Assembly: GCA_029263415.1 (NCBI GenBank)
Contig: JAJCXN010000008.1
Location: 62,001-126,000, forward strand
DNA length: 64,000 nucleotides
From: Acidobacteriota bacterium
GTDB lineage: Bacteria > Acidobacteriota > Thermoanaerobaculia > Multivoradales > Multivoraceae
Direction of reading: 5' to 3'
A program made the position numbers and the translations under genes. Each line of letters opens with the position of its first letter. The stretch's first letter is position 1. The notes under the pieces are model-generated. The model worked only from the letters and a program-made list of their open reading frames with translations, made no database searches and was not told the origin of the DNA. This document shows, piece by piece, positions 15,445 to 33,445 of this stretch.

Positions 15445-15701
15445 TGTGAGGGCTCCTGCGAAGGAAGAAGTTGTCGTGCCGGTCCGAACAGCACGTGGTT
15501 TCACCGGGCGCCAAGGCCAACGGTCATGGGGCGATAGATGCACCCGCCGCCACTTTCCTTCTCGCAATTTCCTCTACACGTTGGAAGCTCGAGGGTCCAA
15601 GGGATCATTCGCAGCACCTCCCATGCTTCAACCATCCAGCACCAACGCTGCTTGATCGAGAACCTTGTGGAGGATCTCGGGCTTCAGTAGGTACCGGCCC
15701 C
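15445..15701. other. Intergenic, nothing recognised
   Basis: This gap lies between the GMC oxidoreductase gene, which ends at 15702 on the minus strand, and the start of the FWFF-module gene. No open frame with coding character, no hairpin and no repeat was recognised. Confidence 0.45.
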
Positions 15702-17453: not shown

Positions 17454-17716
17454 TGCCTTAGGGGATCAAGAGTCGACACGCCGGCAGCGCCACCCACGAT
17501 TGCTAGGGCTACGCGCAACGTTCAGAGGACTGTGTTTGTATCGCTCGGAAACTGAGCCAAACATCGTTTAGAAACTAGACAACCCGCCGCCAGTTGATTG
17601 AGTCTACGGCAGGACCGTTTTCCCGTCCTTTCAGTCAGTAGTAGTTGGGCCTGCGGCCTGATCAGCGAGAAACCGACCCGCCCTGCGGCCGCACAATCGA
17701 CGTAGAGGTGACGCAA

Positions 17717-17992
17717 TATCCGCTCCTTGAGAAGCTCTTCATGAACTCTGACCGGTGTTAGCCGCCGCGCCTTCGTCGTACGTCTTGACCAACTCTCCAG
17801 CAGCTCGTTGGGGCGCGGCGCTACATGCTCCAAAACTCGACGCCGGCGCGACGCATTCTCGACGCGTTTGGGCTCGCTCTCCACTCAATACTTCGACACC
17901 GTCGTGCCGCTCACGCCCAGCTCGCGCGCAACAGATCGCTGACTGCGACCCTCCACCAACACCTTGTGGCGAATAACATTCACCTGAGCCAT
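17717..17992 (-). pseudogene. istA: IS21-family transposase (istA) N-terminal remnant
   Basis: ATG 17992 starts a 35-codon helix-turn-helix segment (VLVEGRSQRSVARELGVSGTTVSKY) ended by TGA at 17887-17885. The same frame then continues with residues that look like the next part of IstA: VLEHVAPRPNELLESW, an R-T-T stretch, then LTPVRVHEELL. No DDE catalytic domain, no istB and no terminal inverted repeats were found nearby, so this is a dead, 5'-end-only relic. The identification rests on the HTH and its characteristic following sequence. The exact 3' limit is uncertain. Confidence 0.72.
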
Positions 17993-18173
17993 CCTCAGCA
18001 TTCCTGCCTCCGTTTGTTCAGGCTCTAAACACGACAAAGCCAAGGGCCGGTTGGTGCTGAGGATGACTCACGTCCGAGCGATGATTGCCCTACTTTCTGA
18101 GCGATGCGTGCACCAGAGTCTTCAGACCTTGTACTGATCCAACCTCCGAATCGCGAAAGTAGTGACGGTCTGC

Positions 18174-18179
18174 TATCTT
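18174..18179 (+). promoter_or_regulatory. Possible -10 element of the VWFA-related gene
   Basis: TATCTT lies seven bases before the operator palindrome and about 77 bases before the ATG at 18256. No good -35 hexamer is seen at the usual distance. The element is proposed mainly because the arrangement repeats that of the other copy of the operator, where a -10-like hexamer abuts the palindrome. Confidence 0.35.
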
Positions 18180-18186
18180 GCAGGAA

Positions 18187-18200
18187 CTAAAACGTTTTAG
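18187..18200. promoter_or_regulatory. LacI-type operator, 14-bp perfect palindrome (copy 1)
   Basis: CTAAAACGTTTTAG is a perfect palindrome with the central CG and A/T arms typical of LacI-family operators. The same 14 bases occur at 29701-29714 beside a lacI-type gene. The copy here lies 55 bases upstream of the VWFA-related secreted protein gene. Confidence 0.8.
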
Positions 18201-18255
18201 CTCACGCCTAAGCGACCCTAGGAAACCCGCTCATATCTCCAGGAATCGAAGCAAG

Positions 18256-20043
18256 ATGCAATATGCGCTTCCGCCAGTCCTCTTGAAGTCCGCCGTCAAT
18301 TCGACGCTATTGACCCTTTTGGTGGCAACGCTGCTCGCTATACCTGTCGGAGCCCAAGCTCCGACAGAGACTTTCGTCGATCGGGTCGATGTGCCACTAG
18401 TCAACGTTGAAGTTTGGGTCTCAAGCTCCGGTGGCAAGCCGGTTGCCGGTCTCTCAGAGAACAACTTCCTGGTGCTTGAGGACGGCAAGCAGGTCGACAT
18501 TGCGTACTTTTCAGAAGTCACCGCAGCGTCGACGTTCTCTAGGCAAGTGAGTCGCGAACAAGAGAACAACGCCCAGACTTTCGGCGAACTTTCCCGACCC
18601 GCTCCCGCCGCAACGACCCATCTAGTCCTCTTCTTCGACGACGCCGGCACCGAGGCTGCCAGCCGTACTCAGTTGGTCCAGGACCTGCGGAGTTTCGTCT
18701 CCGATGGACAGGTTCCTGCCGAGCGCATCCTGCTGCTCAGTTTCGGCGAAACTCTCCAGGTGGAGTCGAGCTTTGGATCCACCAAGGAACAGCTCCAGAA
18801 TGCGCTCGATGCGATAGCAAAAGGAGCGACGCGGGGCACCTTAGAAGCGGGTTCCAAGCGCTTGGCACTTCGCAGTCTCCAGCAGCAGTGGGACGAAGCT
18901 CAGCAGCTCGCTGGCGGTAGAGGGGATCCCTGCGATCTCTTTCTACGACGCGGCCGCGCAGCGGTTGAAGCCTGGGCAAAGACGCGAAAGCAGCACCTCC
19001 TCCGAACCCTGGATGCGCTCGAATCAACCGCAACTCTGGTGTCGGGTATCCCTGGACTCAAGACCGTGGTCTACGCCAGCGACGGGATGGAGACCAGTCC
19101 GGGCGCAGATCTCGCTGGCTATATGGACTCTGTCTGCCCGGCTCGGCCGGATCTCCTCAACCTTCGCGATTTCCTGGGTGAACTCACCGACCCGATACAA
19201 AGCCTGAGTCGGCATGCGAACGCGAACCGAGTCACCTTCTACACCTTTCAAGCCACGGGCCTTCGGCCCTCTCCAGTCGGTAGCGCTGAGTCGAACAGCC
19301 TCGATGTCCGAAGCTTCGGGCGGATCCAAACCGAAGGCCGCGAGAATGCCCGTGAGGGGCTAGTGCTGCTGGCTGACGAAACTGGCGGGCGGGCCTTTCT
19401 CAACCGGAGTGACTTCGGCGAGCAGCTCGAAGAGATCGCTGAGGAAATGCGCTCGTACTACTCCATTGCCTTCACACCCAGCCATGGCGGTGACGGAGGT
19501 GACCACCGCATCGAGGTTCGTGTGTTGGGCGGAGACATGCGTGTCCGCTATCGCGGGAGCTACCATGACAAGACAGCAGCCGAGCGGCTGGGGGAGCAAC
19601 TCCAGAGTGTTCTCTTTCTGGGCGACGCTGAGAATCCACTTCAGGTTCGGCTGGGCGCTGGCGATTTATCGCCTCTGGACAAGGGACGATTCAACTTGCC
19701 GCTTTTCGTGATCGTGCCAACCAATCAGGTCACGTTCCTCCCAATTGACGGTTCTCAGAGCGGTCGACTTCTAGCGCAGGTCGGCCTGCGCGATAGCCGG
19801 AACCTGAGCGTCATTGCACCCTCGCGCCCCTACCCAGTCACCGCGCCTGCGGACGGTGAAACAACTTTCACTTTCCGCATAGACCTCGAAGTGGCGCCAG
19901 GCCCTCAGATTCTGGGGGTGGCGGTGCGCGACGAACATAGCCTGGAAACATCGCTGGTGACCACCACAATCAACGTTCCAGATCCGTCGGTTCCCGAGAG
20001 CAAGAAGCCGTCTCGCCGCAAGAAGCGGGGTTCCGGCCTCTAG
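18256..20043 (+). CDS. Secreted VWFA-related acidobacterial domain protein
   Basis: ATG 18256 is preferred over an upstream start, which would place the operator inside the gene. The 595-residue product has a signal peptide cleaved near residue 35 (LLVATLLAIPVGAQA). An N-terminal strand pair follows, 'VPLVNVEVWVSSSGGKPVAGLSENNFLVLEDGK', typical of the VWFA-related acidobacterial family. The VWA-like core has HLVLFFDDAG, where the usual DxSxS metal site is altered. Later parts include TVVYASDGM and a region with 'EEMRSYYSIAFTP', and the C-terminus is strongly basic (KKPSRRKKRGS). It is exported, and its role is unknown. The upstream LacI-type operator suggests co-regulation with the glucoside island. 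It converges on the 6-phosphogluconolactonase gene 43 bases away. Confidence 0.88.
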   Translation: MQYALPPVLLKSAVNSTLLTLLVATLLAIPVGAQAPTETFVDRVDVPLVNVEVWVSSSGGKPVAGLSENNFLVLEDGKQVDIAYFSEVTAASTFSRQVSREQENNAQTFGELSRPAPAATTHLVLFFDDAGTEAASRTQLVQDLRSFVSDGQVPAERILLLSFGETLQVESSFGSTKEQLQNALDAIAKGATRGTLEAGSKRLALRSLQQQWDEAQQLAGGRGDPCDLFLRRGRAAVEAWAKTRKQHLLRTLDALESTATLVSGIPGLKTVVYASDGMETSPGADLAGYMDSVCPARPDLLNLRDFLGELTDPIQSLSRHANANRVTFYTFQATGLRPSPVGSAESNSLDVRSFGRIQTEGRENAREGLVLLADETGGRAFLNRSDFGEQLEEIAEEMRSYYSIAFTPSHGGDGGDHRIEVRVLGGDMRVRYRGSYHDKTAAERLGEQLQSVLFLGDAENPLQVRLGAGDLSPLDKGRFNLPLFVIVPTNQVTFLPIDGSQSGRLLAQVGLRDSRNLSVIAPSRPYPVTAPADGETTFTFRIDLEVAPGPQILGVAVRDEHSLETSLVTTTINVPDPSVPESKKPSRRKKRGSGL

Positions 20044-20086
20044 CTCTTGGTGGGGCTCAGACCGCCTCTCCTCATGGACTGCAGCC

Positions 20087-20788
20087 TTAGGGTGACCACC
20101 AAACCTCGAGTTGAGGACAGACGTCGGCGACAAGTCGGATAGGAAGCTTCACGGCCTCCTCGGGCACAGCCAAGGCCGCCTCCAACACTTCTCTCTTTTC
20201 GGCCCCCTCAATGTGGAGGATGACGCGCTGGCTTGCTCGAATTGCCGACACCGTCATCGACAACCGAGGAAGGGGAGCACGCATCGGCAGCAACTGAGCC
20301 CAAGAGTGGGAGGTGATAACCGCATGCTTGAGTTGTTTTGCATCCGGAAAGAGGGACGCTGTGTGTCCATCTGTCCCCATGCCGAGCACAGTCACATCGA
20401 AGGGCCTTCCCGGCGGGATGATTTTGTCTTCCCGACCAATTCTTTCCAGCCGGTCTACAGCTGCGCGAAGCCCCTGATCTCGAAAGTCCCAAGGAGCAAG
20501 AAAGCTCGCCTCAGCGGCCGCGTTCTTCAGAAGTCGCTCACGCACTAACGTCTCGTTGCGGTCCCGCTCAACGGAAGTCCAACGCTCGTCCACTAACGCC
20601 ACCACCACTGAGTGGAACGGCACCGTGCTGGTCGATAGCGCCTCGAACAGACGCACCGGGGTCGAGCCTCCAGACACCGCGATCGCTGCTCGCCCATCTC
20701 GTGCCACAGCTTCAATCAAATCGTCCGCAATAGACGCCGCAAGCAGGCGCGCTAGCTCTTCACCGTCTTCGCATTCTGTCCAAATCAT
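20087..20788 (-). CDS. pgl: 6-phosphogluconolactonase (DevB/SOL type)
   Basis: The 233-residue protein has the family motifs AVSGGSTP (near residue 40), VDERWTSVERDRNE and GMGTDGHTASLFPDA. It hydrolyses 6-phosphoglucono-1,5-lactone to 6-phosphogluconate in the cytoplasm. This is the step between the Zwf and Edd enzymes encoded 16-20 kb away in the divergent operon. It is the last gene of the leftward set and lies 46 bases after glucokinase. Length and motifs are normal. Confidence 0.95.
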   Translation of the reverse strand: MIWTECEDGEELARLLAASIADDLIEAVARDGRAAIAVSGGSTPVRLFEALSTSTVPFHSVVVALVDERWTSVERDRNETLVRERLLKNAAAEASFLAPWDFRDQGLRAAVDRLERIGREDKIIPPGRPFDVTVLGMGTDGHTASLFPDAKQLKHAVITSHSWAQLLPMRAPLPRLSMTVSAIRASQRVILHIEGAEKREVLEAALAVPEEAVKLPIRLVADVCPQLEVWWSP

Positions 20789-20834
20789 GCAAGCTCACTC
20801 CCGTCAGAAACACCACCGAGCCTCCCATTGAGGC

Positions 20835-21836
20835 TCAGGCCTTCCGCCGATGAGACCACATGGCGGCTCCGCGGAGCCCGGCCACCGGATCAAGGATAAG
20901 CCGGACAGGGACCCTTTCTAGATAGCTTCCAAATCGACCCTTCTGTGCAAATCGATGCAGAAAGTGAATCTCGTCGAATGCAGGACCCATTTTGTCGAGC
21001 ACTCCGCCGCCAAGGTAAACCCCGCCGAGCGCACCAAAAGTGAGCACTGCGTCACCGACAACGGCTCCAAGCCAAGCCGAGAACATCCGGGTCGTGTCCA
21101 CACACACACGGTCACCATGATGTGCGCCATCAACAATCTCAGCCACTTCCAGCCTCGACTTGGCGAGTTCGCTGGTGCCCGAAAGTACCTGCCAGGCCTG
21201 ATAGAGGTTAACCAGGCCATCTCCCGACAAGACTCGTTCCGCAGACACGTGCCCGAACTCGCGCTGAAGAATCTGCAGGACTTGCCACTCCGGATCGGTG
21301 GTTGCCCCAAGATCCCGATGTCCCCCTTCCCCCTCAATGGCGATCCAGTCGCCTTCAACTGGGAGCAAGGCCGAAACACCAAGGCCGGTACCGGGTCCGA
21401 TCACCAGGATCGGCGCGTCAGCTCGGCTCGACTCACAGCCTGGACTGAGAACCCGGGTTTCCGACTCGGCAAGCAGCGGGATCGACTGGGCCAGAGCGGC
21501 GAAGTCGTTGACGACATCTAGGGAACGCAAGCCGAGGTCTTGTGCCAACGCTGTACGGGAAAAACTCCAATTGCTGTTGGTCAAGGCAACATGATCTCCC
21601 ACCACCGGACAGGCGACTGCGAGAGTCGCTTTCTCGACCTTGACACTCTGGCCGTCGAGATACTCCCGAAGCGCATCGGCCACAGTTGAATAAGCCTCGA
21701 CAGGTGACCGTTCGACCGAGCGCGGATGAGGATCAGCTGAATCGGCGACGAGACCACATCTAACCCAGGTCCCGCCGATGTCGACCACCAAGCGCTCGGG
21801 TTCCGTACGCGGAGCAATCTGTGGATTCACCGTCAT
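20835..21836 (-). CDS. glk: Glucokinase (ROK-independent, bacterial Glk family)
   Basis: ATG 21836 gives 333 residues. A GGAG lies 11 bases upstream, and the longer upstream reading adds an arginine-rich tail without homology. Motifs include VVDIGGTWVRCG (the phosphate loop), NDFAALAQSIP, VIGPGTGLGVS and the sugar-binding EGEGGHRDLG. The first motif has Trp where most Glk proteins have Asn, which is odd but does not break the fold pattern. The enzyme makes glucose-6-phosphate from glucose delivered by the upstream symporter and feeds the Entner-Doudoroff enzymes encoded in the same island. It is 55 bases after the symporter gene. Confidence 0.92.
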   Translation of the reverse strand: MTVNPQIAPRTEPERLVVDIGGTWVRCGLVADSADPHPRSVERSPVEAYSTVADALREYLDGQSVKVEKATLAVACPVVGDHVALTNSNWSFSRTALAQDLGLRSLDVVNDFAALAQSIPLLAESETRVLSPGCESSRADAPILVIGPGTGLGVSALLPVEGDWIAIEGEGGHRDLGATTDPEWQVLQILQREFGHVSAERVLSGDGLVNLYQAWQVLSGTSELAKSRLEVAEIVDGAHHGDRVCVDTTRMFSAWLGAVVGDAVLTFGALGGVYLGGGVLDKMGPAFDEIHFLHRFAQKGRFGSYLERVPVRLILDPVAGLRGAAMWSHRRKA

Positions 21837-21891
21837 GACAACAATTTCTCCGCAACTCCGTCGCCTAGGCAAACCCCTTCGCAAAACCACC

Positions 21892-23514
21892 TCATCTAAA
21901 CAGCACCCAAACCACGATGACCGCAGCGATCAGGAGACCCGTCCAGAGGAGATCCCGCTTGCGACTGTGCTCCTCGGATGCTGATCGGCTACCAAGGGTC
22001 GTAGCGAAGGTCAGCCCTTCCAGCTGAGCCGCCGGTAGCGGTTGGGTCATCAGACTGACCACGACCAGGACGAGAGAGCAAATCACAAAGAGTAAAAGAG
22101 CGAAATGGAGAAAGTTGATGGAGACAAAGCTGTCCATAATCCCGTTCAACGCGACTCCACGCAGTTCGAGCACTAAGCGCAAGGTTCCCAGGACAAAGCC
22201 AGTCAACAGTGACGCCATCGCACCCTTGGCATTGGCTCGCCTCCAGCACAGGCCGATCAGAAAGACCGCTGCGATGGGTGGAGCAATATACGCCTGCACG
22301 CTCTGAAGATAGACGTAAATCTGACCCGAGATGAACTTCATGAAGGGAATCCACGCCAAGCCAAGAACGACAAGAAACAGCGTTGAGACCTTGCCCACTA
22401 GGACGAGGGACTTCTCCGAGGCGTTTGGTCGCAACGGACGGTAGACATCAAGTGTGATCAGTGTCGAGCAAGAGTTGAAGACTGCAGCAAGTGAACTCAT
22501 CAGCGCCGCAAGAAATCCTGCGACCACCAAACCACGAATTCCCGCAGGTAACAAACTACGGATCATTTCCGGCAGTGCATGGTCCGGGTTGGTGATGTTC
22601 AGCACGCCCTTCTGGGTCAGGGCCAGGGCGATCACACCGGGAACCACAAACAAGAAGAGCGGCAGGATCTTGAGAAAGCCAGCGAAGATTGTTCCCCGAC
22701 GTGCTTGCTCGATGCCGTGCGCTGAAAGAACTCTCTGAACGATGAACTGATCTGTGCACCAATACCAGACACCCAGAATAGGAGCACCGAACAGAATCCC
22801 CGTCCAGGGAAAGCTCGGGTGACTCGACGGATGCCACATCTCCCAAAAACTCGGATCCACCGAGGTGCGCAGCGCGCTGATTCCGCCCAACTTGACGATG
22901 CCCAGAATCGTGACGAGAAGGGCTCCGAGGATCAGTAGGACGGTCTGGATAGCTTCGGTATAGAGCACCGCGCGCAGGCCGCCGAGAACGGTGTAAGCCC
23001 CGGTGAGTAGAACAATCAAGATGGCACCGGTCCAAAATCCACCACCGACTAAGACCTCGAAGACGATCCCGCCGGCATAGAGGGTGACTGAGATCTTGGT
23101 GAGTACGTAGCCGATGATCGAAACCACGGCGAGGTACCAGCGTGCTCCAGAAGAGTACCGGCGCTCCAGAAACTCCGGCATGGTGAAGACACCGCTCGAT
23201 ATGTAGAACGGGACAAACACCCAGCCCAGCAACAGCAGGATCAAAGAGGCGAGCAGTTCGAACTGGGCTACAGCCACGCCCGACCCAAAGCCGGTACCGG
23301 CTAGGCCCACTAAGTGCTCAGAGCCAATATTGGAAGCAAAGAGCGCCGCGCCGACCACGAACCAGCCAACGTTGCGGCCCGCGAGGAAGTAGCCTGTGGA
23401 CGATTCGTGCGTCGACTTCTTGCCAGCGGCTGACCACCACGCGACGCCGAGTATCAGGCCGAAGTATGCGGCAACTACTAACCAGTCGAGAGTCCCAAGT
23501 TGCTCGGTCATCAC
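21892..23514 (-). CDS. Sodium/solute symporter (SSS family), SGLT-like sugar transporter
   Basis: The 540-residue membrane protein has about 13-14 hydrophobic helices and SSS-family signatures: 'GYFLAGRNVGWFVVGAALFASNIGSEHLVGLAG' near the N-terminus, 'GGLRAVLYTEAIQTVLL', 'WYWCTDQFIVQRVLSA' and 'AALMSSLAAVFNSCSTLITLDVYR'. The WCTDQ..VQR.L stretch is characteristic of the SGLT/glucose branch. Imported substrate would be glucose, or galactose, released in the periplasm by the GH3 enzyme encoded upstream. It is read leftwards between bglX-like and glk genes, with short gaps. Sugar specificity is inferred from family and context. Confidence 0.93.
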   Translation of the reverse strand: MMTEQLGTLDWLVVAAYFGLILGVAWWSAAGKKSTHESSTGYFLAGRNVGWFVVGAALFASNIGSEHLVGLAGTGFGSGVAVAQFELLASLILLLLGWVFVPFYISSGVFTMPEFLERRYSSGARWYLAVVSIIGYVLTKISVTLYAGGIVFEVLVGGGFWTGAILIVLLTGAYTVLGGLRAVLYTEAIQTVLLILGALLVTILGIVKLGGISALRTSVDPSFWEMWHPSSHPSFPWTGILFGAPILGVWYWCTDQFIVQRVLSAHGIEQARRGTIFAGFLKILPLFLFVVPGVIALALTQKGVLNITNPDHALPEMIRSLLPAGIRGLVVAGFLAALMSSLAAVFNSCSTLITLDVYRPLRPNASEKSLVLVGKVSTLFLVVLGLAWIPFMKFISGQIYVYLQSVQAYIAPPIAAVFLIGLCWRRANAKGAMASLLTGFVLGTLRLVLELRGVALNGIMDSFVSINFLHFALLLFVICSLVLVVVSLMTQPLPAAQLEGLTFATTLGSRSASEEHSRKRDLLWTGLLIAAVIVVWVLFR

Positions 23515-23599
23515 ACCAACTCCAGTCCTTGACGCACTTGGTTGAGCCCAGGGTTGATCTCCGCTCGAGGACGGTCACCGAGGACATAGAAATTTCGCA

Positions 23600-25975
23600 T
23601 CATTCCGCAGGGCGCTCGAGCGTCAGTGTGGCCGACTGATCGCCCACCGTAATCACGAAGTCACCAGGCTCCACAATCCGCTCAAGGTCACGTCGGACGA
23701 ACTCGAAGTCCGCTGGTCCGAGGGTGAACTCCACCACAACTGACTTGCCAGGTTCGAGAAAAACCTTTTGAAAGCGCCGCAATCGTTTTGCCGATGGCGT
23801 GATGCTCGCCACCTCGTCGGTCACGAAGAGCAACGTCGATTCAAGCCCCGCTCGCTGTCCAGTATTGGTCACTTGGTACGAAACCCCAACGCTTTCGCGA
23901 AGTCCCGCAGACGACTCTGTAAGAGTCAGATCCGATACCTCGAACGTCGTGTAGCTGAGACCATGGCCAAAGGGCCACTGCGGGTTGAAGGCCGTGAGTC
24001 CGAAAGTTGTGTCCTGCCTTTCAGACTGCTTGAAGTCGTAGGTCCGCAGTGCATTGGTGAAGCGCGGATAAGTGATCGGAAGTTTGCCGCTCGGGTTGAC
24101 CATGCCGAGCAATACTTCGGCGATCGCTTGGCCGCCCTCGTGGCCAGGGTTCGGCGCGAACAGCACCGCCGCTGCAGCATCCGCGATGCCATCCAAGACC
24201 CGGGGCCGACCCTGAATCAGCACCAGTACTACCGGCTTGCCAAGATCGTAGGCCGCTCTGGCCAACTCAAGCTGATCCTTAGGCAAGCGTAGATCGTCGA
24301 TATTTCCTGGCGTCTCGGTGTAGGACTGCTCGCCCAGGCAGAGGATCACAACATCGGCCTTTCGACTTTCACGGCGTAAGCCTGGCAAGATCGAGGGTAC
24401 ATTGATGTCTGCTCGAGGGGTCGGAAGGTAGTGCACGCGATTCCGGGCCATGGCGCTCAGGCCGGCGACTAGGCTCAGCGACTCCTCGGGATAGTTCGAG
24501 GCCCCGTGTCCCTGCCACGTGTAAGTCCAACCATTCGCCAGTGACTCAAGAGAGTCTGCCGTCGGCCCAGTGATCAGCAGGCGTGTTCCTTCATCCAGCG
24601 GCAAGGTCGCATCTCGATTTTCGAGAAGAACGATCGATTCGCGCGCCGCTGCAAGCGCTACTTTGCGCGCCTCGGTGGAGCCAACCTCTACCTCTGAATC
24701 AACCCCTAGGAGCGGGTCGGAGAACAGACCGAGTTCGAATTTGAGCCGCAGAATGCGACGCACCGAGAGGTCCAGTCGAGCTTCGCTGATCGAGCCTTCT
24801 GCGACAAGCTCCGCCATGAGATCCATGAAACTTGCATCGCGCGGCACCATGCTCATGTCTACGCCCGCGTTGATCGCCATGAGAGTGGCCTGTTTCTCGG
24901 TGACAGCCACCCGGTGAAGGGTGACCAGCTTCTTAATGTCTTCCCAATCGGTCACTGCCACACCGCGAAAGCCGAGTTCCTCACGGAGCAGCTCGGTCAA
25001 CATTCGGCGATCACCATGTACAGGGATTCCGTTGATCTCGCCCGAATTGATCATCACCGTGCGGGCACCAGCGTTCACCGCAGCTCGAAACGGTGGCACG
25101 AAGATTTCGTGCAACCTGCGCTCGGGAATCCTCGACGGCGTCCGATCATGTCCGGTCACCGGCTCGCTGTAACCAAGGAAATGTTTCATCGTCGAAGCGA
25201 CGCTCATGGCACCGTCAATGCGCCGACCCTCGTAGCCGCGGATCGAGGCAACGCCGAACACCGATACCAGGTAGGGATCTTCGCCAAAGGTTTCGTAGAG
25301 CCGAGGCCAGGCGGGATGCCTCCCCACATCTAGGACTGGCGAGAAGTTCCATGGCACGCCGGCTTTGCGGGTCTCCGCCGCAGCCAACCGGCTACCTTTC
25401 AAGGTCAACTCCGGGTTGAATGTCGCAGCCAGGCCCAACGGCTGCGGAAAGATTGTCGCCGACTCCACATAGTTTGCTCCGTGGATGCTGTCGAGACCAT
25501 AGATCACTGGAATCTTCAAACGTGAAGCCGTGGCCGCGTTTTGGATCGCTCGAATCAGGCCATGCCAACGTTCCACCGAGAGCGCCTCCCCATTGACGTT
25601 CAGAATCGACCCAACGGCTCGCTCTGTCACCATCTCACGAAGCTTGTCCGGATTGATCTGCATCTCTTGATGCAAACCGTCGGTAATCATGAAGATGTCG
25701 AGCTGCGTCATCTGGCCGATCTTCTCGGTCACGGTCATCCGAGCAAGGAGGGCCTCGAGCGCCACTTCATCCACGGGCTGGGCTTGCGCGCGGCCCTCCG
25801 CTGCAAGAAACGCCTCACTACCGACCGAACCGGTGGTGGACTCAGGGAATCCGACGATGACCTGCGCCGACACAGCAGCACCACAGAGGAACAGGACCAG
25901 AAACATCAACCAAAGCGAAGGCTGAGTGCCGCGCCAGTTTGCCGATCGGGCCGCTCGATCAACCAGGTACTTCAT
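23600..25975 (-). CDS. Glycoside hydrolase family 3 beta-glucosidase, exported
   Basis: ATG 25975, after a GAGAG box, gives 791 residues. The open frame extends upstream, but this start places the hydrophobic signal (LWLMFLVLFLCGAAVSAQ, residues 21-38) near the N-terminus. The TIM-barrel domain shows EKIGQMTQ, PVIYGLDSIHG, ETFGEDP, KHFLGYSEP (substrate-binding KH, 264-265) and the nucleophile motif VTDWED (Asp 343). The alpha/beta sandwich and a C-terminal fibronectin-III-like domain (FGHGLSYTTFEVSDL) follow. This is the layout of BglX/ExoP-type exo-beta-glucosidases. It should release glucose from beta-gluco-oligosaccharides in the periplasm after entry through the neighbouring TonB receptor. 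Linkage preference cannot be read from sequence alone. Confidence 0.95.
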   Translation of the reverse strand: MKYLVDRAARSANWRGTQPSLWLMFLVLFLCGAAVSAQVIVGFPESTTGSVGSEAFLAAEGRAQAQPVDEVALEALLARMTVTEKIGQMTQLDIFMITDGLHQEMQINPDKLREMVTERAVGSILNVNGEALSVERWHGLIRAIQNAATASRLKIPVIYGLDSIHGANYVESATIFPQPLGLAATFNPELTLKGSRLAAAETRKAGVPWNFSPVLDVGRHPAWPRLYETFGEDPYLVSVFGVASIRGYEGRRIDGAMSVASTMKHFLGYSEPVTGHDRTPSRIPERRLHEIFVPPFRAAVNAGARTVMINSGEINGIPVHGDRRMLTELLREELGFRGVAVTDWEDIKKLVTLHRVAVTEKQATLMAINAGVDMSMVPRDASFMDLMAELVAEGSISEARLDLSVRRILRLKFELGLFSDPLLGVDSEVEVGSTEARKVALAAARESIVLLENRDATLPLDEGTRLLITGPTADSLESLANGWTYTWQGHGASNYPEESLSLVAGLSAMARNRVHYLPTPRADINVPSILPGLRRESRKADVVILCLGEQSYTETPGNIDDLRLPKDQLELARAAYDLGKPVVLVLIQGRPRVLDGIADAAAAVLFAPNPGHEGGQAIAEVLLGMVNPSGKLPITYPRFTNALRTYDFKQSERQDTTFGLTAFNPQWPFGHGLSYTTFEVSDLTLTESSAGLRESVGVSYQVTNTGQRAGLESTLLFVTDEVASITPSAKRLRRFQKVFLEPGKSVVVEFTLGPADFEFVRRDLERIVEPGDFVITVGDQSATLTLERPAE

Positions 25976-26168
25976 GTCATCTCTCGTAAATTCAGATGGA
26001 ACGGGGTGCCAAACACGTCGGTGCAACGAGCAGCCGAAGGAATGGCCTCCAGGACCCGCCTCAAAGCCGGCCAGTCTGGTTACACAAGCCAAGAGCAACG
26101 GCTAGATGAGCCAACCCGGTCGTGAAGAAAGCTCACGATCGGGCTGTGCTTCCGCCTTCGAAAGACCT
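25976..26168. other. Gap between receptor and beta-glucosidase genes
   Basis: A 193-bp spacer lies within the leftward set. It contains a short imperfect hairpin around 26120-26145 (CGTGA paired with TCACG) but no operator copy. A secondary promoter for the downstream genes, or an mRNA processing site that gives the receptor gene its own level, is possible. Confidence 0.35.
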
Positions 26169-29100
26169 CTAGAAGATCAGGCGAAGACCTAGCTGTACCT
26201 GGCGAGGATCACGAGTTGCAATCGCCCGGCCAAAAGAGCCGGAGGGAGTGAAACCGGTAATCGTCGTGGCCTGATCGACCGGGGCATCGAGGGTGATCGA
26301 ACTCGGGTTCAACGCGGTATCCACCGCGATGAAGTTGTCCCGATTAAATACATTGAAGACCTCGAACCGGACTTGCATGCGCACACTGTCGGTCACTCGG
26401 ATGTTCTTGTAGAAGGACAGGTCAACCTGAAAGAACTCTGGACCTTCGCAAGAACCACGTTCGTAGTCACCAATGCTTCCCAGCTGAAACCCGTCCAGAG
26501 TGAACGCATTTGGGTTGAGCCACTGCTCGCCCGGGCCACCACTTGCCTTACAGGGCTGACCAGGAACGCGGTTAGGCCGTTGGTTGTTGGCGAAACCAGT
26601 GCCAGAGACACCACCACCGAGGCCAGGTGCACCACCGACAGTCACATTAAGAGCCTGCCCTGATGCGTAGTTGACGATACTTGCGATCTCCCAGTTGCCG
26701 AAGAGCCCGCGGACAAAGCCGCCCTTGTTGTCCAGCGTTGGCAAGTTGAGCACCAAGCTCGCATTGAAGACATGGTCCCGATGCAAACCGGCGTAGCCCC
26801 AATCAAGACGCGAATTCTCCGGATCGATAACCTGCCCCGCGAAGGTGCCCGCACCAGAATCGTTCAGTGGATCGTCGGCCTTGAAGTTCGCGTACGTGTA
26901 GGACGCCTGGAACTGCGAGCCACGACCGAAGGTGCTCCTGAACTGCGTTTGCAACGAGTGGTACTCCGACGAACCGTTGTTTTCCCAGTAGAGGATGGTC
27001 GCGTCACCAAAGACACTGTACTGACGGAAGCGGCCTGGATTGTTCGCTCCGGCTCGAATGTAGTCGAGTCGATCCGAGACACCATTGCCGTCGCCGTCCC
27101 CAGTTGAAACGTAGTTGATGTCGGAACGACGCATCAGATGCTTGCCGCGACTCCCAACGTAGCCCACCTCAAACGAGGAGTTGCGGCCAATCCGCTGCTC
27201 CCAGCTCAGGTTGTACTGGAGGTTGTAAGGAGTCTCAGCGTTCTTGTCGAAACCGTTCCGCGGCGCACCCGCACCGACTGAAAAGCAGCCCCCGCACGGT
27301 TCGTTTGCATCATCGAGCTTCCGAATCCCACTCTGCGAGAACGCATACGGCGGATTACCGGCCATCTCCAAGATGACGTTGACACGCTCACGCTGGAAGA
27401 ATTGGCCAGCTCCTGCTCGCACCACCGTCCTGCCATCACCCTTAAGGTCCCAGGCAAGGCCGAGACGAGGAGCGAAGTTGTCGTCGTCGGTCTCGACCAG
27501 AGCACTATTCGGACCCGGTCTTCCGCCAAGAAAACCTGCTGCCTGGCAACCGCTGGTTCCAGGGACCTCGAGCAATCCGTTGCACGGATCGTTACCCAGC
27601 GCGGGGTCAAACGAGGCGGGATCGAAACTAGTGATCCGACTGTCAGCAGCACTGGGTAACTCATAGCGCGAGTAACGAATGCCGTAGTCCAGGGTCACTC
27701 GATCGGTGATGCTCCAAGAATCGGCAACGTAAAGTTCGATGTCGGTCCATTCCAACTCAGGAAACGGCTCGAACGAGTTCTCAGAGAAGCCAAAGGTCAT
27801 GTCATCAATGAGGAAGTCCGCAAGGACATTGCCACTGGTCGCACCCCAGCCGTTGATGCCGGCCGCACCCCAGAACTGCGGCGACTCGAACGCCGAGGCA
27901 CCGCCGATGAACTCATCCTTCTTGCCTTCCCCGTAGAGAATGCCAGCACGCAGCCAGTGATCGCCGAAGACCTGTTCATAGTCGTTCTTCAGCACGAGAA
28001 GATCTTGCTTGTTCTGCCAAGGTGCGATGTTCCAGAGAGCTTGGTAGCCCTGCCCACCCCAGAAAACCGGATGGCTGCGATCCGCGCCGCCAGTCTTTCC
28101 GCCGAAGACGGTGGGAATCAGCGAGTTGATCTCGCCGTTCAATCCAGGGTTCGTACCGCCACGCGCGATATCGATCTCGTTCCCAGAGTAGGAGAAGCGC
28201 AAGCTGTTGACCGAGTTGGCGCCCAGCGTATTCGTCAGCTGTGTCACCACCGAGCGAGCGGGCTGGTCCCAGGATGAATCAACCACCGGGAAGGGATCGT
28301 CGCCCCACAAGCCGTTCGAAGCACCCGCGTTAGGAGAGCCGTTTTCCCAGCTGTCCTGGGTGTAGCGCAGCATGACTTGAGTGCGGTCGTTGGGTGTCGC
28401 GTCAAGCCGCAGGCTGTCCTGACGCCACTCAATCGGTGTCGCCGGAGCATCGACGTAGTTGTTGCAACTACCACCGGTGGGATTCACGTTCGGCTGGGGG
28501 AACAGATTGAGATATGCAAGACCAGCATCACTGAGCCGATCGGCAGGAATCTGGTTACCGGGGAAAGGCTGACCCGTCAGCGGATCGACCGGAATCGCTG
28601 GAGAGCAACCAGCAATACGAGCGCCACTGAAGTCTCCGACCCGCTCTGCAGCGGTCGGAACAAACCCGGTCCGCACAACACCGCGCGCTTCATCGTTCCA
28701 CTCCTCGGACCAAAAAAAGTGCAGCTTGTCGCGCACCACAGGGCCGCCTAGGGTGAAGCCGAAGTCGTCGCGCTTGAGCGGTTCCTTTGCGAGATTGGCC
28801 TGCTCGAGAAAGTAGTTCGTTTCCGAAAGAGAGGCATCCCGATTGAAGTAGAAGGCGGAACCATGAAAGCGGTTGGTGCCGCTCTTAGTAACGAGATTGA
28901 TTTGGGCACCACCGGACTGTCCAAACTCCGCTCCATAGCTATTGCGATGGATTTTGAACTGCTCGATGCTCTCAGCAGCCGGGTACACCAGAATCGTGCG
29001 GTTCGAACCAACGTCGTTGTTGTTGGCGCCATCTACCGACCAAAGGTTTGAAGTGGTCGAACCACCAGACACCGAGAGATCAACGCCACCCAGCAGTCCC

Positions 29101-29615
29101 TTGTTCTTGGTATCAAGGCCCTCTGGCGCACTGACACCTGGCATGAGCTGGGCAAGCTGCACAAAGTTGCGACCGTTTAGCGGCAGTTCGCGGACCTGGT
29201 CTCCAGTGATAACCCCGGCCACTTCGCCACCGACGGTCTCCAAGGAGACCGCGTCGGCGCTGACAGTGACGACATCTACGAGAGTGCCCACGTCCATGGC
29301 GAAACTCATCGAGCGATTATCCGCTACGTTGAGCACAACCCCTTCGATCTCCTTGCTCTGGAAGCCATCCAGCGACGCTGAAAGATCGTAGGTCCCAACC
29401 ACCAAGTTGGGGAAGCTGAAAGCACCGTTGCTTCCAGTGATAGCAGTCCGTTCGAAGCCATTCTTGGCATTGTTGATCACGACCGTTACGCCCGGAAGGG
29501 CCTGGCCATCGGGACTCGTCACGGTGCCCTGCAAGCTCGCCAACGTTCGCTGGGAAAAAACTGCAACTGGGACGACCAAGACGAGAAGGAATAGCACGAG
29601 ACTTCGTGTGCGCAT
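26169..29615 (-). CDS. TonB-dependent receptor, carboxypeptidase-regulatory-like type (oligosaccharide uptake)
   Basis: ATG 29615, nine bases after GAGGAA, gives 1148 residues. A TTG two codons upstream is the alternative. After a signal peptide (LVLFLLVLVVPVAVFSQ) comes a carboxypeptidase-regulatory-like beta-sandwich (ASLQGTVTSPDGQALPGVTV to FQSKEIEGVVL). A plug with LNGRNFVQLAQLMPGV follows, then a long barrel ending in VQLGLRLIF. No STN-like domain is present, unlike the other receptor in this window. Such acidobacterial receptors are thought to import oligosaccharides, and no SusD gene accompanies it. It is the first gene of the leftward sugar set and lies next to a LacI operator. Ligand identity (a beta-glucan oligomer) is inference. 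Confidence 0.93.
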   Translation of the reverse strand: MRTRSLVLFLLVLVVPVAVFSQRTLASLQGTVTSPDGQALPGVTVVINNAKNGFERTAITGSNGAFSFPNLVVGTYDLSASLDGFQSKEIEGVVLNVADNRSMSFAMDVGTLVDVVTVSADAVSLETVGGEVAGVITGDQVRELPLNGRNFVQLAQLMPGVSAPEGLDTKNKGLLGGVDLSVSGGSTTSNLWSVDGANNNDVGSNRTILVYPAAESIEQFKIHRNSYGAEFGQSGGAQINLVTKSGTNRFHGSAFYFNRDASLSETNYFLEQANLAKEPLKRDDFGFTLGGPVVRDKLHFFWSEEWNDEARGVVRTGFVPTAAERVGDFSGARIAGCSPAIPVDPLTGQPFPGNQIPADRLSDAGLAYLNLFPQPNVNPTGGSCNNYVDAPATPIEWRQDSLRLDATPNDRTQVMLRYTQDSWENGSPNAGASNGLWGDDPFPVVDSSWDQPARSVVTQLTNTLGANSVNSLRFSYSGNEIDIARGGTNPGLNGEINSLIPTVFGGKTGGADRSHPVFWGGQGYQALWNIAPWQNKQDLLVLKNDYEQVFGDHWLRAGILYGEGKKDEFIGGASAFESPQFWGAAGINGWGATSGNVLADFLIDDMTFGFSENSFEPFPELEWTDIELYVADSWSITDRVTLDYGIRYSRYELPSAADSRITSFDPASFDPALGNDPCNGLLEVPGTSGCQAAGFLGGRPGPNSALVETDDDNFAPRLGLAWDLKGDGRTVVRAGAGQFFQRERVNVILEMAGNPPYAFSQSGIRKLDDANEPCGGCFSVGAGAPRNGFDKNAETPYNLQYNLSWEQRIGRNSSFEVGYVGSRGKHLMRRSDINYVSTGDGDGNGVSDRLDYIRAGANNPGRFRQYSVFGDATILYWENNGSSEYHSLQTQFRSTFGRGSQFQASYTYANFKADDPLNDSGAGTFAGQVIDPENSRLDWGYAGLHRDHVFNASLVLNLPTLDNKGGFVRGLFGNWEIASIVNYASGQALNVTVGGAPGLGGGVSGTGFANNQRPNRVPGQPCKASGGPGEQWLNPNAFTLDGFQLGSIGDYERGSCEGPEFFQVDLSFYKNIRVTDSVRMQVRFEVFNVFNRDNFIAVDTALNPSSITLDAPVDQATTITGFTPSGSFGRAIATRDPRQVQLGLRLIF

Positions 29616-29697
29616 GAGCAACGTTCCTCACTTTCTAAATGGATGCCTTGCGGCGTGTGGCAAGCTGACGAGGTCATAAGCGGCCAGCGGACTTGCC

Positions 29698-29717
29698 TTA
29701 CTAAAACGTTTTAGTAA
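29698..29717. promoter_or_regulatory. LacI-type operator, 20-bp perfect palindrome (copy 2)
   Basis: TTACTAAAACGTTTTAGTAA is identical to its own reverse complement. Its central 14 bases match the copy at 18187-18200. It lies 82 bases before the receptor ATG (minus strand) and 255 bases before the lacI start, directly after the predicted leftward -10 box. A repressor bound here would cover the transcription start. Confidence 0.88.
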
Positions 29718-29746
29718 ACTTACCACGCTCCCAACAAAGCCGTCAA
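29717..29746 (-). promoter_or_regulatory. Predicted promoter of the leftward receptor/beta-glucosidase set
   Basis: On the minus strand TTGACG (29746-29741) and TAAGTT (29722-29717) are 18 bases apart, a plausible sigma-70 -35/-10 pair. The -10 box overlaps the first base of the operator palindrome, a classical repression geometry. The -10 match is modest. Confidence 0.5.
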
Positions 29747-29972: not shown

Positions 29973-31082
29973 TTGGTAGCCGACAAACGAACAGCCCGAT
30001 TGCCCAAAGCCCGCACCAAGGCCCAGCCCGTCCGCCTGAAGGATGTCGCTCAATTTCTCGGCGTCTCCCCCGCAACCGTCTCGCTAATTCTTAACCGGGC
30101 CCCCGCCGCAGCGGCCATACCGGAAGAGACCCATCGACGCGTCCGCGCCGCCGCCAAGAGCCTTGGCTATCGCCCGAACCAACTCGCGCGCTCGCTGCGA
30201 AGCAACCGTACGCAGACCATCGGCGTGTTGGTCCCGGAGATTTCAGAGGGCTACGAGGCCGCGGTCCTAGCGGGCATCGAGGAACAGCTACACAAAGAGA
30301 ACTACTTCTACTTCGTAGCCAGTCATACCTCAGACCCAGAACGGATGCGCTTCGCCCTGCAGACCTTCGAAGACCGTCAGGTCGAGGGCCTCATTCTCGC
30401 CAATACCAATCTGCCGAGCGACACCAACGTGCCGACGGTAAGGATTTCTGGAGATGCCAAGCGCACCGTTGGTGCTTCCGTCGTCCTGGACCACGACCAT
30501 GCTGCCAAGCTCGCACTCGATCACCTCTGGCAGCTAGGCCACCGAGATGTAGCTTTCTTCCGAGGCCCTGTAGATAGTGCCGATTCGGGTGTGCGCTGGA
30601 AAGCAATCGTCCGCTACGCACGCACTCTCGGCCTACCCATTCGGGAGAATCTGGTCAGACGTCTAGGCGAACTCAAGAGCGATCATAGCGGCGCCGCTAG
30701 AGAACATTTCCGGGATGTCGAAGTCGGCTATGCCGAGGGATATGAGTGCGCAGCTGATTTGTTGAGCTCGCTAGTTCCCTTCACGGCGCTGTTTTCCTTC
30801 AACGATCTTTCCGCGATTGGCGCCGCAAGAGCATTCGCAGAGTCCAACCGCTATGTTCCACAAGACATCTCGCTGGTGGGATTCGACGACATCTTAAGCG
30901 CGTCGTTCCATACGCCTCCCTTGACTACGGTGCGGCAGCCCCTTCGCGAAATGGGTCGACTCGCTGCCAAAACACTGCTCGCTGCAGTCCGCGGGGAGCA
31001 GGAAGCTGAGGCGGGAGCCCAAACGGTGGAACCCCAACTCATGATCCGAAGATCCACCGCAACCCCCCTACGAAGGCTGTAG
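29973..31082 (+). CDS. LacI family transcriptional regulator
   Basis: The 369-residue protein seems to start at TTG 29973, since no ATG or GTG is available ahead of the DNA-binding domain. The helix-turn-helix and hinge helix lie at about residues 21-75 (VRLKDVAQFLGVSPATVSLILN, then RPNQLARSLRSNRTQTIGVLVPEI). The periplasmic-binding-protein-like effector domain follows, with YFVASHTSDPER, FSFNDLSAIGAARAF and the C-terminal SLVGFDDI and TTVRQP motifs. It is the first gene of a seven-gene rightward operon and adjoins the 20-bp operator, so it is the obvious candidate to bind both operator copies. The effector is probably a glucoside or ED intermediate (inference). Confidence 0.93.
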   Translation: MVADKRTARLPKARTKAQPVRLKDVAQFLGVSPATVSLILNRAPAAAAIPEETHRRVRAAAKSLGYRPNQLARSLRSNRTQTIGVLVPEISEGYEAAVLAGIEEQLHKENYFYFVASHTSDPERMRFALQTFEDRQVEGLILANTNLPSDTNVPTVRISGDAKRTVGASVVLDHDHAAKLALDHLWQLGHRDVAFFRGPVDSADSGVRWKAIVRYARTLGLPIRENLVRRLGELKSDHSGAAREHFRDVEVGYAEGYECAADLLSSLVPFTALFSFNDLSAIGAARAFAESNRYVPQDISLVGFDDILSASFHTPPLTTVRQPLREMGRLAAKTLLAAVRGEQEAEAGAQTVEPQLMIRRSTATPLRRL

Positions 31083-31084
31083 GT

Positions 31085-33445
31085 ATGGTGCACAGCAAAA
31101 TCACACAGCCCCCCCTTGCGGGACTGAACGTCACTATCCTCAGCCTCCTCTTCGCGTTTGCTGCGGCTGCGTACGGAGCCAGCCCCAACCCGAGAACAGA
31201 CTCTGGGCGTCCGGAACGCCTCGCCCTAGGGCTCATTCTCCAAGGAGAGCGAGCGCTCGCCGCCGGCGAACTTGACCTCGGCGAAAGCCTGCTCAGGGAA
31301 GGACTTCTCGAAGCCTGGTTGGTACGCGCCGCGATGGCCAGCTCTCTAGATGAAACCCAGACCGCTGAGCGAAGTTACCAAGCCGCGCTGAGGATCTCCG
31401 CGGAGGAAAGGCGACCCCTCCTCGGGACTGCGCTGGTCGCTTTCGAGAAGGGTCAGCTCGAAACTGCAAACCTGACACTCCGCCGGGTCCTCGAGCGCTC
31501 CCCCACCGACCTGATCGCTAAGCGGTGGATCGCGCACGTCCTGGCAGCGGAGGGCCACGAAGAAGAAGCTGTTCAAGAGCTTCGGGAGCTAGTTAACACC
31601 AGCAAGGCTGCGGATGAGGCACCTGAGCCTTCACAAACCACCGTGGAATTGATGTTCACCCTAGGCACCGGGCTTCTGCGCACAGGCGAGGTGTCAGAGG
31701 CGATCACGCTCTTTGAAGAGCTAACCCTAAAGGACCCTCGAGCAGAAACATACGTACTAGTAGGCCGTACCTTGCGTGATTTCAGGCAGCTCGAGCCTGC
31801 TCGCGCAATGCTCGAACGGGCCCTCGCCATTGACCCTGAGGCTGCACGAGCCAATTTCTACCTGGCCTCGGTGGAGCTGCTGATCGATGGCCCGCAGGCC
31901 AACCAGAAAGCGATCACGGCGTACCGAAGGGAGCTTCGGAACACGCCCGACGAACCTTGGCTCAACTTCCATCTTGGGATTGTGTTGATGGAAACCCGCC
32001 TCTACCAGGAAGCGGCTGACGCCTTGGAGCGCGCCGTCAAACCTCCATCGCCGAGTGTCGGCGCGTTGCACGTCTATGGCACGGTTTTGGTGAGGCTCAG
32101 TCGGGACCAAGAAGCGGTCGAAACCCTCGGCCGGGCTCTCGCATCTGCGCGTTCAGAGGGCTCCGCGCCGGAGCAGCTCTCAAGCATCCGTTATCAACTC
32201 GGTTTAGCTCATCGCAATCTCGGCAACCAAGCCTCGGCAACTGAGCACTTCAACGCCGCCAAACAATCGAGTGCGCAACAAGTTTCGAGCGCCCGCTCGC
32301 AACTAACCCTCTATCTCGACGACTCGTCCTCCGCTGACTTGACCGACCAAAACCGCGATCGCTCACTTGTTCTTGGCGCGATGCAGGCGCCCCGTTACCC
32401 CGCCACAGATCCTGACTCGCTCCGATTGGCGGCCGCCGCCCTCGACCGCCGCATGGGCAGTGCCTACTACAACCTGGGCCTACTTCTCTTGCAGAAGGAC
32501 GAGGCCGCCAGGGCCGCGGATCTCTTCGAGATTGCCACCCAAACTTCTCCAGAAACTCAGTACGTTCATGCGCTTTCGGTAGCGCAATTTCGTGCGGGCA
32601 ACTATCGCGAGGCGGTGACCGGTCTGGAACGGGCCTTGGCATCCACGAGCGGAACCGCGAGCTTAGCGTTCGACCCGATGGAGGCGCGGCGGATGTTGGC
32701 CGTTGCTCAGATGCAGAGCGGGCAGTTCGACGTGGCGGCGGATCTCTTGCTTTCTGATCCGGCCACTGGCAACGATCCCAATCTCCAGTACGTGCTGGGT
32801 ACAGCCCTGATCCGCGGTGGCCGCCGCGAGCAGGCGGCCCTGCTCCTAGATAGCCTGGTCGCCCGTCACGAAGGCTGGGCACCTTTGCAAGTCTTACTCG
32901 GCCAGGCAAAGGCCCAGACTGGTGACTTCGAGGCTGCAGTCGAACATCTCGAGAAGGCCCTCGAGCTCAACCCTGATGTCCAGGACGCCCATTCCGGACT
33001 CGGCATGATCGCCCTGCGTGAAGGACGACTTGAGCAGGCCGAACAGCACTACCTCGCCGAACTCGAACGTCAGCCAAACTCACTCGAACTAGAGTACCTC
33101 CTAGCAAACGTGCTCGAACGGTCGCAGCAACTCGAGCGCGCATCGAACCTTCTTTTCGGAGTCTTGCGCCGCGACCCAGAACACGCCAACGCGCGATATC
33201 TCCTGGGCAAGATCCAGCTCGCCCGCGGCCTCCTCGTGGAGGCAGCGCAACATCTGGCAACCGCAGTCCAACTGGCGCCCGGCAACTACAACGCGCACTA
33301 TCAGCTGGGCATCTGTTTGCAGCGGCTGGGAAGAGCGGATGAATCTAGTGCAGCGTTCGCTGAGTACCGACGGCTCAAGGCCACCAATGGCGATAGTCCC
33401 CAAGCAGATCCGCTATCGAACCCGCAACTAGAGCCGCTCCCATGA
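31085..33445 (+). CDS. Secreted TPR-repeat protein (large)
   Basis: The ATG is two bases after the LacI stop codon. The 786-residue protein begins with a signal-like segment (VTILSLLFAFAAAAYGASP, residues 16-34) and is then almost entirely tetratricopeptide repeats. Copies are clear near residues 190-260, 290-350, 450-520 and 590-760 (for example 'AVEHLEKALELNPDVQDAHSGLGMIAL'). TPR solenoids are protein-interaction scaffolds. The export signal places this one in the periplasm. Translational linkage to LacI, a second TPR protein and a CRTAC1 protein suggests a role in an envelope assembly tied to sugar use, but no direct function is known. Confidence 0.88.
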   Translation: MVHSKITQPPLAGLNVTILSLLFAFAAAAYGASPNPRTDSGRPERLALGLILQGERALAAGELDLGESLLREGLLEAWLVRAAMASSLDETQTAERSYQAALRISAEERRPLLGTALVAFEKGQLETANLTLRRVLERSPTDLIAKRWIAHVLAAEGHEEEAVQELRELVNTSKAADEAPEPSQTTVELMFTLGTGLLRTGEVSEAITLFEELTLKDPRAETYVLVGRTLRDFRQLEPARAMLERALAIDPEAARANFYLASVELLIDGPQANQKAITAYRRELRNTPDEPWLNFHLGIVLMETRLYQEAADALERAVKPPSPSVGALHVYGTVLVRLSRDQEAVETLGRALASARSEGSAPEQLSSIRYQLGLAHRNLGNQASATEHFNAAKQSSAQQVSSARSQLTLYLDDSSSADLTDQNRDRSLVLGAMQAPRYPATDPDSLRLAAAALDRRMGSAYYNLGLLLLQKDEAARAADLFEIATQTSPETQYVHALSVAQFRAGNYREAVTGLERALASTSGTASLAFDPMEARRMLAVAQMQSGQFDVAADLLLSDPATGNDPNLQYVLGTALIRGGRREQAALLLDSLVARHEGWAPLQVLLGQAKAQTGDFEAAVEHLEKALELNPDVQDAHSGLGMIALREGRLEQAEQHYLAELERQPNSLELEYLLANVLERSQQLERASNLLFGVLRRDPEHANARYLLGKIQLARGLLVEAAQHLATAVQLAPGNYNAHYQLGICLQRLGRADESSAAFAEYRRLKATNGDSPQADPLSNPQLEPLP

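Follow-up and report, generated by a model that had tools for sequence, protein, structure and literature searches.

Two copies of a LacI-type operator point to a probable local glucan regulon that includes a TIGR03436 VWA protein in an acidobacterium

Regulons of LacI-family transcription factors with operators that are even palindromes centred on CG, mostly located 30-140 bp upstream of the target genes, are well known, and among the described systems those closest to the one analysed here are the BglR and GluR regulons of Caulobacterales (PMC4052901, in the parts of the article available to us). Here, we analyse a 64,000-nucleotide stretch of the genome of a member of the Acidobacteriota (contig JAJCXN010000008.1, positions 62,001 to 126,000; hereinafter, the window) that carries a lacI-type gene, genes for sugar uptake and catabolism, a gene for an exported VWA-domain protein of the TIGR03436 family (the VWFA gene) and two copies of a palindrome predicted to be the LacI operator. 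As in the Caulobacterales, to the extent that these parts of PMC4052901 describe them, the regulator gene lies beside beta-glucoside genes, the operator is an even palindrome with a central CG, the sites precede gene starts by 30-140 bp, and glk, zwf, pgl and edd are among the predicted targets. The window differs in that its half-site, TAAA, lacks the G at position NT-6 (the two motifs being compared by such features and not aligned base by base), in that the host belongs to the Acidobacteriota, and in that the predicted targets include an Oar-type receptor as well as TPR, ASPIC/UnbV and TIGR03436 VWA proteins (same parts of PMC4052901). The consensus of RbsR2 and RbsR3 of Bifidobacterium, TGATAAAACGTTTTATCA, contains the core TAAAACGTTTTA found in the window (PMC4746261, in part); however, these regulators have ribose and nucleoside targets, their operators are flanked by TGA..TCA as opposed to TAC..GTA, and the lineage is unrelated. 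When the literature was searched for the text of the motif, this was the only publication in which a LacI-type site was seen, as far as the retrieved portions of the articles go.

We consider the acidobacterial regulator-operator pair and its link to one TIGR03436 clade to be new, given that no report of either was found in the literature searched. In the Sus-type polysaccharide utilisation loci of Bacteroidota, a SusC-like receptor is paired with a SusD lipoprotein, and the regulator is HTCS or SusR. The window resembles these loci in combining a TonB-dependent receptor, a glycosidase, an inner-membrane importer and a local regulator, but its receptor is of the Oar type, LacI takes the place of HTCS or SusR, an additional set of TPR, UnbV and VWFA genes is present, and no SusD family was detected among the 20 window proteins scanned (E 0.001), the receptor itself being present. 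For the TIGR03436 family, neither a function nor a regulon was found in the literature searched, and we know of none; the clade that includes the window protein stands apart as a distinct group of orthologues that appears to be tied to a LacI regulon. Nothing was found in that literature on a regulon of an acidobacterial VWFA gene; for Solibacter, VWA, UnbV and TonB paralogues are only listed in the available parts of PMC3174227.

The 14-mer CTAAAACGTTTTAG occurs in the window as an exact match at positions 18187-18200 (site 1) and 29701-29714 (site 2), 11.5 kb apart in one locus. Site 2 extends to a perfect 20-bp palindrome, TTACTAAAACGTTTTAGTAA (29698-29717), and is located between the operon of the TonB-dependent receptor and lacI, whereas the palindrome of site 1 is limited to 14 bp and precedes the VWFA gene, 55 bp before the likely start codon, ATG 18256. 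There is no other match in the window at up to three mismatches (mean of 0.70 such matches in shuffled sequences). In the whole genome (G000; 6,891,803 bases in 60 contigs, 99.2% complete), these are the only two exact copies, and a single additional place, on contig C21, matches with two mismatches; Markov models of orders 0-3 trained on the window predict 0.0005-0.006 exact copies in 6.89 Mb. An earlier note on this DNA had described the palindrome as occurring exactly twice, once as a perfect 20-bp palindrome in the divergent region next to lacI and once ahead of a VWFA-related gene, and all of this holds; the genome-wide scan that the note had called for returned two copies and not the dozens of hits that it had named as counter-evidence. 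The flanks of the two sites share no notable sequence other than the operator (one 15-base match), so a recent duplication of the promoter region as the source of the two sites can be ruled out. We did not find a wider regulon in G000 either: a third exact copy of the 12-mer core TAAANCGNTTTA (C23:181202) lies inside a 457-aa open reading frame (ORF), ahead of an ORF that by eye appears helicase-like, and 17 places in the genome are within one mismatch of the 12-mer, compared to 45 for a reversed control pattern.

Several lines of evidence assign the motif to the LacI protein of the window, which consists of an N-terminal helix-turn-helix (HTH) region (PF00356, 42.7 bits) and a C-terminal periplasmic-binding-like domain (PF13377, 107.1 bits). 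No other PF00356 protein was found in the 6.89 Mb of G000, with the same search yielding matches in 9 of 14 named genomes used as a control. In a set of 60 genomes that includes G000, orthologues of this LacI (E<=1e-60) were identified in 27 and exact TAAANCGNTTTA also in 27; 25 genomes have both, 31 have neither, two have LacI only (G018 and G034), and two have the site only (G022 and G040). The resulting Fisher probability of 2e-12 overstates independence because the genomes are related. Among the discordant genomes, the lacI gene of G018 is cut by the start of a contig, and in G022 a fragment of LacI is found where a contig ends. In 15 receptor/lacI intergenic regions chosen from those available, the aligned columns TAAA.CG.TTTA are invariant, as is TCAAG, which forms the core of a TTGACA -35 element on the receptor strand. 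In genus g2, sites are present in 19 of 21 genomes, and in these 19 two operators lie 65-69 bp apart at lacI. The 52 closer loci among 80 named ones (L143-L194) were examined: 22 have a site with at most one mismatch, nine of these exact, and 30 have none at that threshold. At least six of the nine loci with exact sites come from genomes already in the 60-genome set; the three others, not represented in that set, show the site in its extended form, such as TTACTAAATCGTTTTAGTAG for L156 and TTACTAAATCGTTTTAGTAT for L158, with 13-bp steps in some of them. As a separate observation, overlapping arrays of operator-like sequences with 13-bp steps are present in L149, L156, L158, L160, L163 and L165, all from other Acidobacteriota, mostly just 5' of related LacI genes.

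The published protein-DNA rules for the LacI family, so far as the accessible text of Camas et al. (PMC2978694) gives them, agree with ownership of the motif by the window LacI. According to these rules, Arg at position 20 goes with G at NT-6, and conserved hinge Ala and Leu residues (AA-51 and AA-54) go with even palindromes with a central CG. Position 20 of the window LacI is Leu (TVSL), with Leu, Val or Ile in the aligned orthologues, and the sites carry T at NT-6; in the hinge, A72, S74 and L75 are invariant among 11 aligned orthologues and R73 nearly so, and the central CG of the operator is invariant as well.

The second part of the case concerns the VWFA gene. Its orthologues form a clade with 38-42% identity to the window protein and scores above 350 bits when full-length, compared to about 30% identity for most paralogues; the list was compiled by hand with a hand-drawn score cut and includes genes of G015 and G017 that are split or cut. 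(In G015, a genus-g2 genome, the orthologue at C6:275524-276618 is split by a frame change.) Orthologues are present in 25 of the 60 genomes, 24 of which have LacI at E<=1e-60, the 25th being G022 with its LacI fragment. The gene shares a contig with lacI in 21 of the 24 and, in all of these 21 except the window, is co-directional with and just downstream of lacI (20/24). The order in genus g2 is SSF-GH3-receptor, operators, lacI-X-VWFA-TPR-TPR-UnbV, where X, identified in one genome (G009), is an MFS gene, and in G052 it is lacI-VWFA-GSDH-TPR-TPR-UnbV. In three genomes, an operator accompanies VWFA itself: an exact one in the window; one 45 bp before the ATG in G043, on a contig other than that of lacI; and, in G060, one between the divergently oriented start of VWFA and the receptor gene, the rest of VWFA apparently being on another contig. 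In the 10.2 Mb of G043, only three places are within two mismatches of TACTAAANCGNTTTAGTA, and they precede GH3, GH16 and VWFA.

The comparative evidence thus supports both the assignment of the motif to LacI and the inclusion of VWFA in the predicted regulon, of which the gene is, on these grounds, a core member and not an outlier. The earlier note's proposal that the VWFA protein is tied to a LacI sugar regulon is supported by gene order and by the operators of G043 and G060; its picture of a regulon reaching beyond the sugar genes is not, because the VWFA gene adjoins the sugar operon in convergent orientation to pgl and therefore is not a remote target, and because it lies just downstream of lacI in most relatives that possess it. 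A conserved link, in both operator and gene order, ties one TIGR03436 clade to glucan uptake and suggests an inducer class, a set of partners and a testable phenotype. This offers an entry point to a large family that is uncharacterised, with 30 genes above the cut-off in G000 alone, one of them with internal stops. The connection to the regulon also outlives gene order: one genus keeps VWFA just downstream of lacI, and in G000 and G043 the gene stands by itself and carries an operator of its own. In G000, it was not seen for the rest of the family: none of the other 29 paralogues has a site within one mismatch of the 12-mer in the 20 regions scanned (only about 0.2 and 0.5 kb upstream for two of them), and a general pairing of TIGR03436 genes with receptors was not found either, with a single receptor match in these regions (tblastn with the two window receptors as queries).

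Several observations weigh against this interpretation. No operator-like site was seen in the DNA scanned upstream of the VWFA orthologues of G033, G056, G065 and G067 (G056 has three copies, with just 79 bp scanned for one), and G065, which is 82% complete, has VWFA but no detected LacI. Conversely, G034 has a LacI of 50% identity but no site. Of the 18 exact core sites that the 60 genomes carry elsewhere than at lacI, five are inside ORFs or near genes with no clear link, weak 18-mer sites (<=3 mismatches) are not above the reversed control in number (7 vs 14 in G052 and 9 vs 6 in G043), and two three-mismatch sites of G043 (C17 and C20) have no clear target. A scan for consensus promoters found none at either site, and G000 has no detected GH16, which makes its natural substrate less clear than that of its relatives.

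Candidate promoters can nevertheless be recognised by eye. At operator 2 (predicted, 29698-29717), a likely receptor promoter on the minus strand (29717-29746) consists of a -35 element TTGACG (29746-29741), an 18-bp spacer and a -10 element TAAGTT (29722-29717), such that the operator would cover +1; the -35 element aligns with the TTGACA conserved among relatives, and the receptor likely starts at ATG 29615. At operator 1 (predicted, 18187-18200), TGCTATCTT (18171-18179, plus strand) is a possible extended -10 element of a VWFA promoter, and here, too, the operator would cover +1. The claim that a -10-like hexamer stands just before both palindromes is hence plausible on visual inspection and fails to be reproduced by the consensus scan. 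A longer version of the VWFA ORF, with a TTG start at 18178, takes in operator 1. A check for autoregulation identified no lacI promoter; the lacI start is 258 bp from operator 2 in G000 and nearer to it in genus g2.

The motif, its uniqueness, the single LacI gene, the conservation across genomes and the gene content are direct observations, and it is highly probable, judging from them, that the locus forms a local LacI-family regulon for the use of glucan or beta-glucosides that includes the VWA gene; binding, repression and inducer are predicted as follows. A LacI dimer would bind (S)TAAANCGNTTTA(S) palindromes with a central CG, at operator 2 over the promoter start of the receptor-GH3-SSF-glucokinase-pgl operon and possibly also in the service of the divergent lacI-TPR-TPR-UnbV-edd-eda-zwf operon, and at operator 1 over the promoter start of the single gene for the exported VWA protein. 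In the absence of sugar, LacI would repress both promoters; glucose or a beta-gluco-oligosaccharide would release it, leading to joint expression of the functions for oligosaccharide import, cleavage and phosphorylation, the Entner-Doudoroff pathway and the VWA protein.

Other interpretations of the same data are conceivable. Given that the two sites belong to one locus and that LacI-family proteins can work through distant operators, site 1 might be an auxiliary operator from which LacI reaches site 2 by looping and modulates the receptor operon, with VWFA not meaningfully regulated; however, site 1 is placed 55 bp before the VWFA start codon, the G043 site and its lacI are on different contigs, VWFA lies just downstream of lacI in genus g2, and no C-terminal tetramerisation tail is obvious to the eye in the window LacI, all of which makes looping a very improbable explanation. 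Even less credence is due to the palindrome being shared by chance or bound by some other regulator. Although the next-best sites in the genome do look random, as indicated by their deficit relative to the reversed control, we reject this possibility on the strength of the two genome-wide copies, their low expected number and the single LacI-HTH gene, to which the conservation of the motif together with LacI across genomes can be added.

A different view accepts that LacI owns both sites but casts it as an activator that responds to glucose, or as a dual regulator of central sugar metabolism, similar to GapR or GluR, and not as a repressor released by beta-glucosides. The presence of zwf, edd and eda in the lacI operon, as judged by gene spacing, is compatible with such a role, as is the prediction that GluR of Caulobacter controls zwf-pgl-edd-glk (PMC4052901, in the available parts). 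Against it, at both promoters, as read by eye, the operator seems to lie over +1, and edd, eda and zwf have no tblastn match in 40 loci of relatives, so that control of the Entner-Doudoroff pathway looks like a local addition; we regard this alternative as unlikely, albeit less so than the other two.

Returning to the repressor model, sites in relatives indicate what the regulon is for. Apart from the five without a clear link, the 18 exact core sites away from lacI comprise three before GH16 genes (G040, G052 and G056), nine beside Oar-type receptors and the VWFA site of the window. Six genus-g2 genomes and G033 account for the receptor-side sites; the receptor gene of G022 runs into a contig end and was recognised by eye. 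In four cases, the site lies between the receptor and a divergent ORF, itself another possible target (the one that was scanned, in L103, is an FAA-hydrolase gene). In addition, weaker 18-mer sites of G052 precede GH3, a second GH16 and a ROK-family kinase (the reading of targets covered weak sites other than two on C17 and those on C112 and C248 of G052 and on C35 and C37 of G043), and G036 has an exact site between lacI and SSF. The GH16, GH3, kinase and receptor sites point to beta-glucan use. With no GH16 in the genome and with a locus that includes glucokinase, pgl, edd, eda and zwf, the organism of the window probably lives on imported beta-gluco-oligosaccharides, which we infer to be fed straight into the Entner-Doudoroff pathway. 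Because the two exact sites of its only LacI are associated with the uptake genes and the VWA gene, and because this link is retained in relatives, the exported VWA protein probably takes part in glucan use as well.

Some of these sites have peculiar arrangements. In L103-L106 and L108 (genus g2), a further Oar-type receptor is accompanied by one exact operator or by two (in L108, at a distance of 23 bp), and the L103 site is 10 bp before the divergent FAA-hydrolase gene. In G033 (L113:1737-7041), an exact operator separates a divergent receptor from a more distant TIGR03436 paralogue.

The VWA protein (595 aa; 18256-20043, plus strand) scores 169.9 bits with the TIGR03436 model, above the curated cut-off of 81.25, whereas a Pfam scan of the longer ORF matched no family. 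Its N-terminus resembles a signal peptide and, by pattern, has no lipobox. In the structure predicted by AlphaFold (pLDDT 79.9, pTM 0.78), residues ~118-403 match chains with the VWA fold (Z up to 14.7, rmsd 2.5 over 166 residues, with many tied rows), consistent with a Rossmann-like VWA fold in the model; the remainder would comprise an Ig-like domain (~45-97) and C-terminal beta domains, named from the strand order of the model. The canonical metal-site motif of such domains, the MIDAS sequence DxSxS, is missing, with DDAGT at 128-132 in G000 and mostly D[EDQ]LHL in the orthologues, and no solved relative of the clade was found by sequence at E 0.01. Most likely, the protein acts in the envelope as a partner of the receptor/TPR/UnbV set. 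More tentatively, and with considerable doubt, we propose that this MIDAS-less clade might be an envelope component of a glucan-capture machine composed of the Oar-type receptor, the VWA protein, two TPR proteins and ASPIC/UnbV, in a role like that of SusD in Bacteroidota, with expression tied to the substrate by LacI; under this proposal, the link would survive repeated relocation because the operator travels along or is regained.

The gene order in the window is GMC oxidoreductase (-), operator 1, VWFA (+), pgl-glucokinase-SSF-GH3-receptor (all -), operator 2 and lacI-TPR-TPR-UnbV-edd-eda-zwf (all +). The minus-strand operon encodes 6-phosphogluconolactonase (pgl, 20087-20788; TIGR01198, 162.3 bits, over the cut-off), glucokinase (20835-21890; PF02685, with TIGR00749 over the cut-off), a sodium/solute symporter (SSF, 21892-23514; PF00474, with TIGR00813 over the cut-off), a GH3 glycosidase, probably of the beta-glucosidase type (23600-26098; PF00933, PF01915 and PF14310, the best NCBIfam names all being under their cut-offs), and the TonB-dependent receptor with CarboxypepD_reg, plug and OMP_b-brl_4 regions (26169-29621; PF25183, 581.5 bits), which we take to be of the Oar type. 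On the plus strand, lacI (29973-31082) is followed after a 2-base gap by the first TPR gene (31085-33445), then by a second TPR gene that overlaps both neighbours (33442-34425) and genes for an FG-GAP/ASPIC-UnbV protein (34422-36245; PF13517, PF07593), 6-phosphogluconate dehydratase (edd, 36242-38257; TIGR01196, 900.8 bits), KDPG aldolase (eda, 38254-38937; PF01081) and glucose-6-phosphate dehydrogenase (zwf, 38937-40427; PF00479, PF02781); because start and stop codons touch or overlap (gaps of at most 2 bases), lacI to zwf look like one operon.

Directly 5' of the VWFA promoter, a broken IstA-like transposase reading (IS21-type, by eye; ~17522-18020, minus strand) may mark how VWFA moved. 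Finally, a 391-aa ORF with no Pfam match is located at 14392-15567 (minus strand) of the window; partial relatives of this ORF are found in G000 near other TIGR03436 genes (L255 and L264) and in G043 next to an exact core site (L112).

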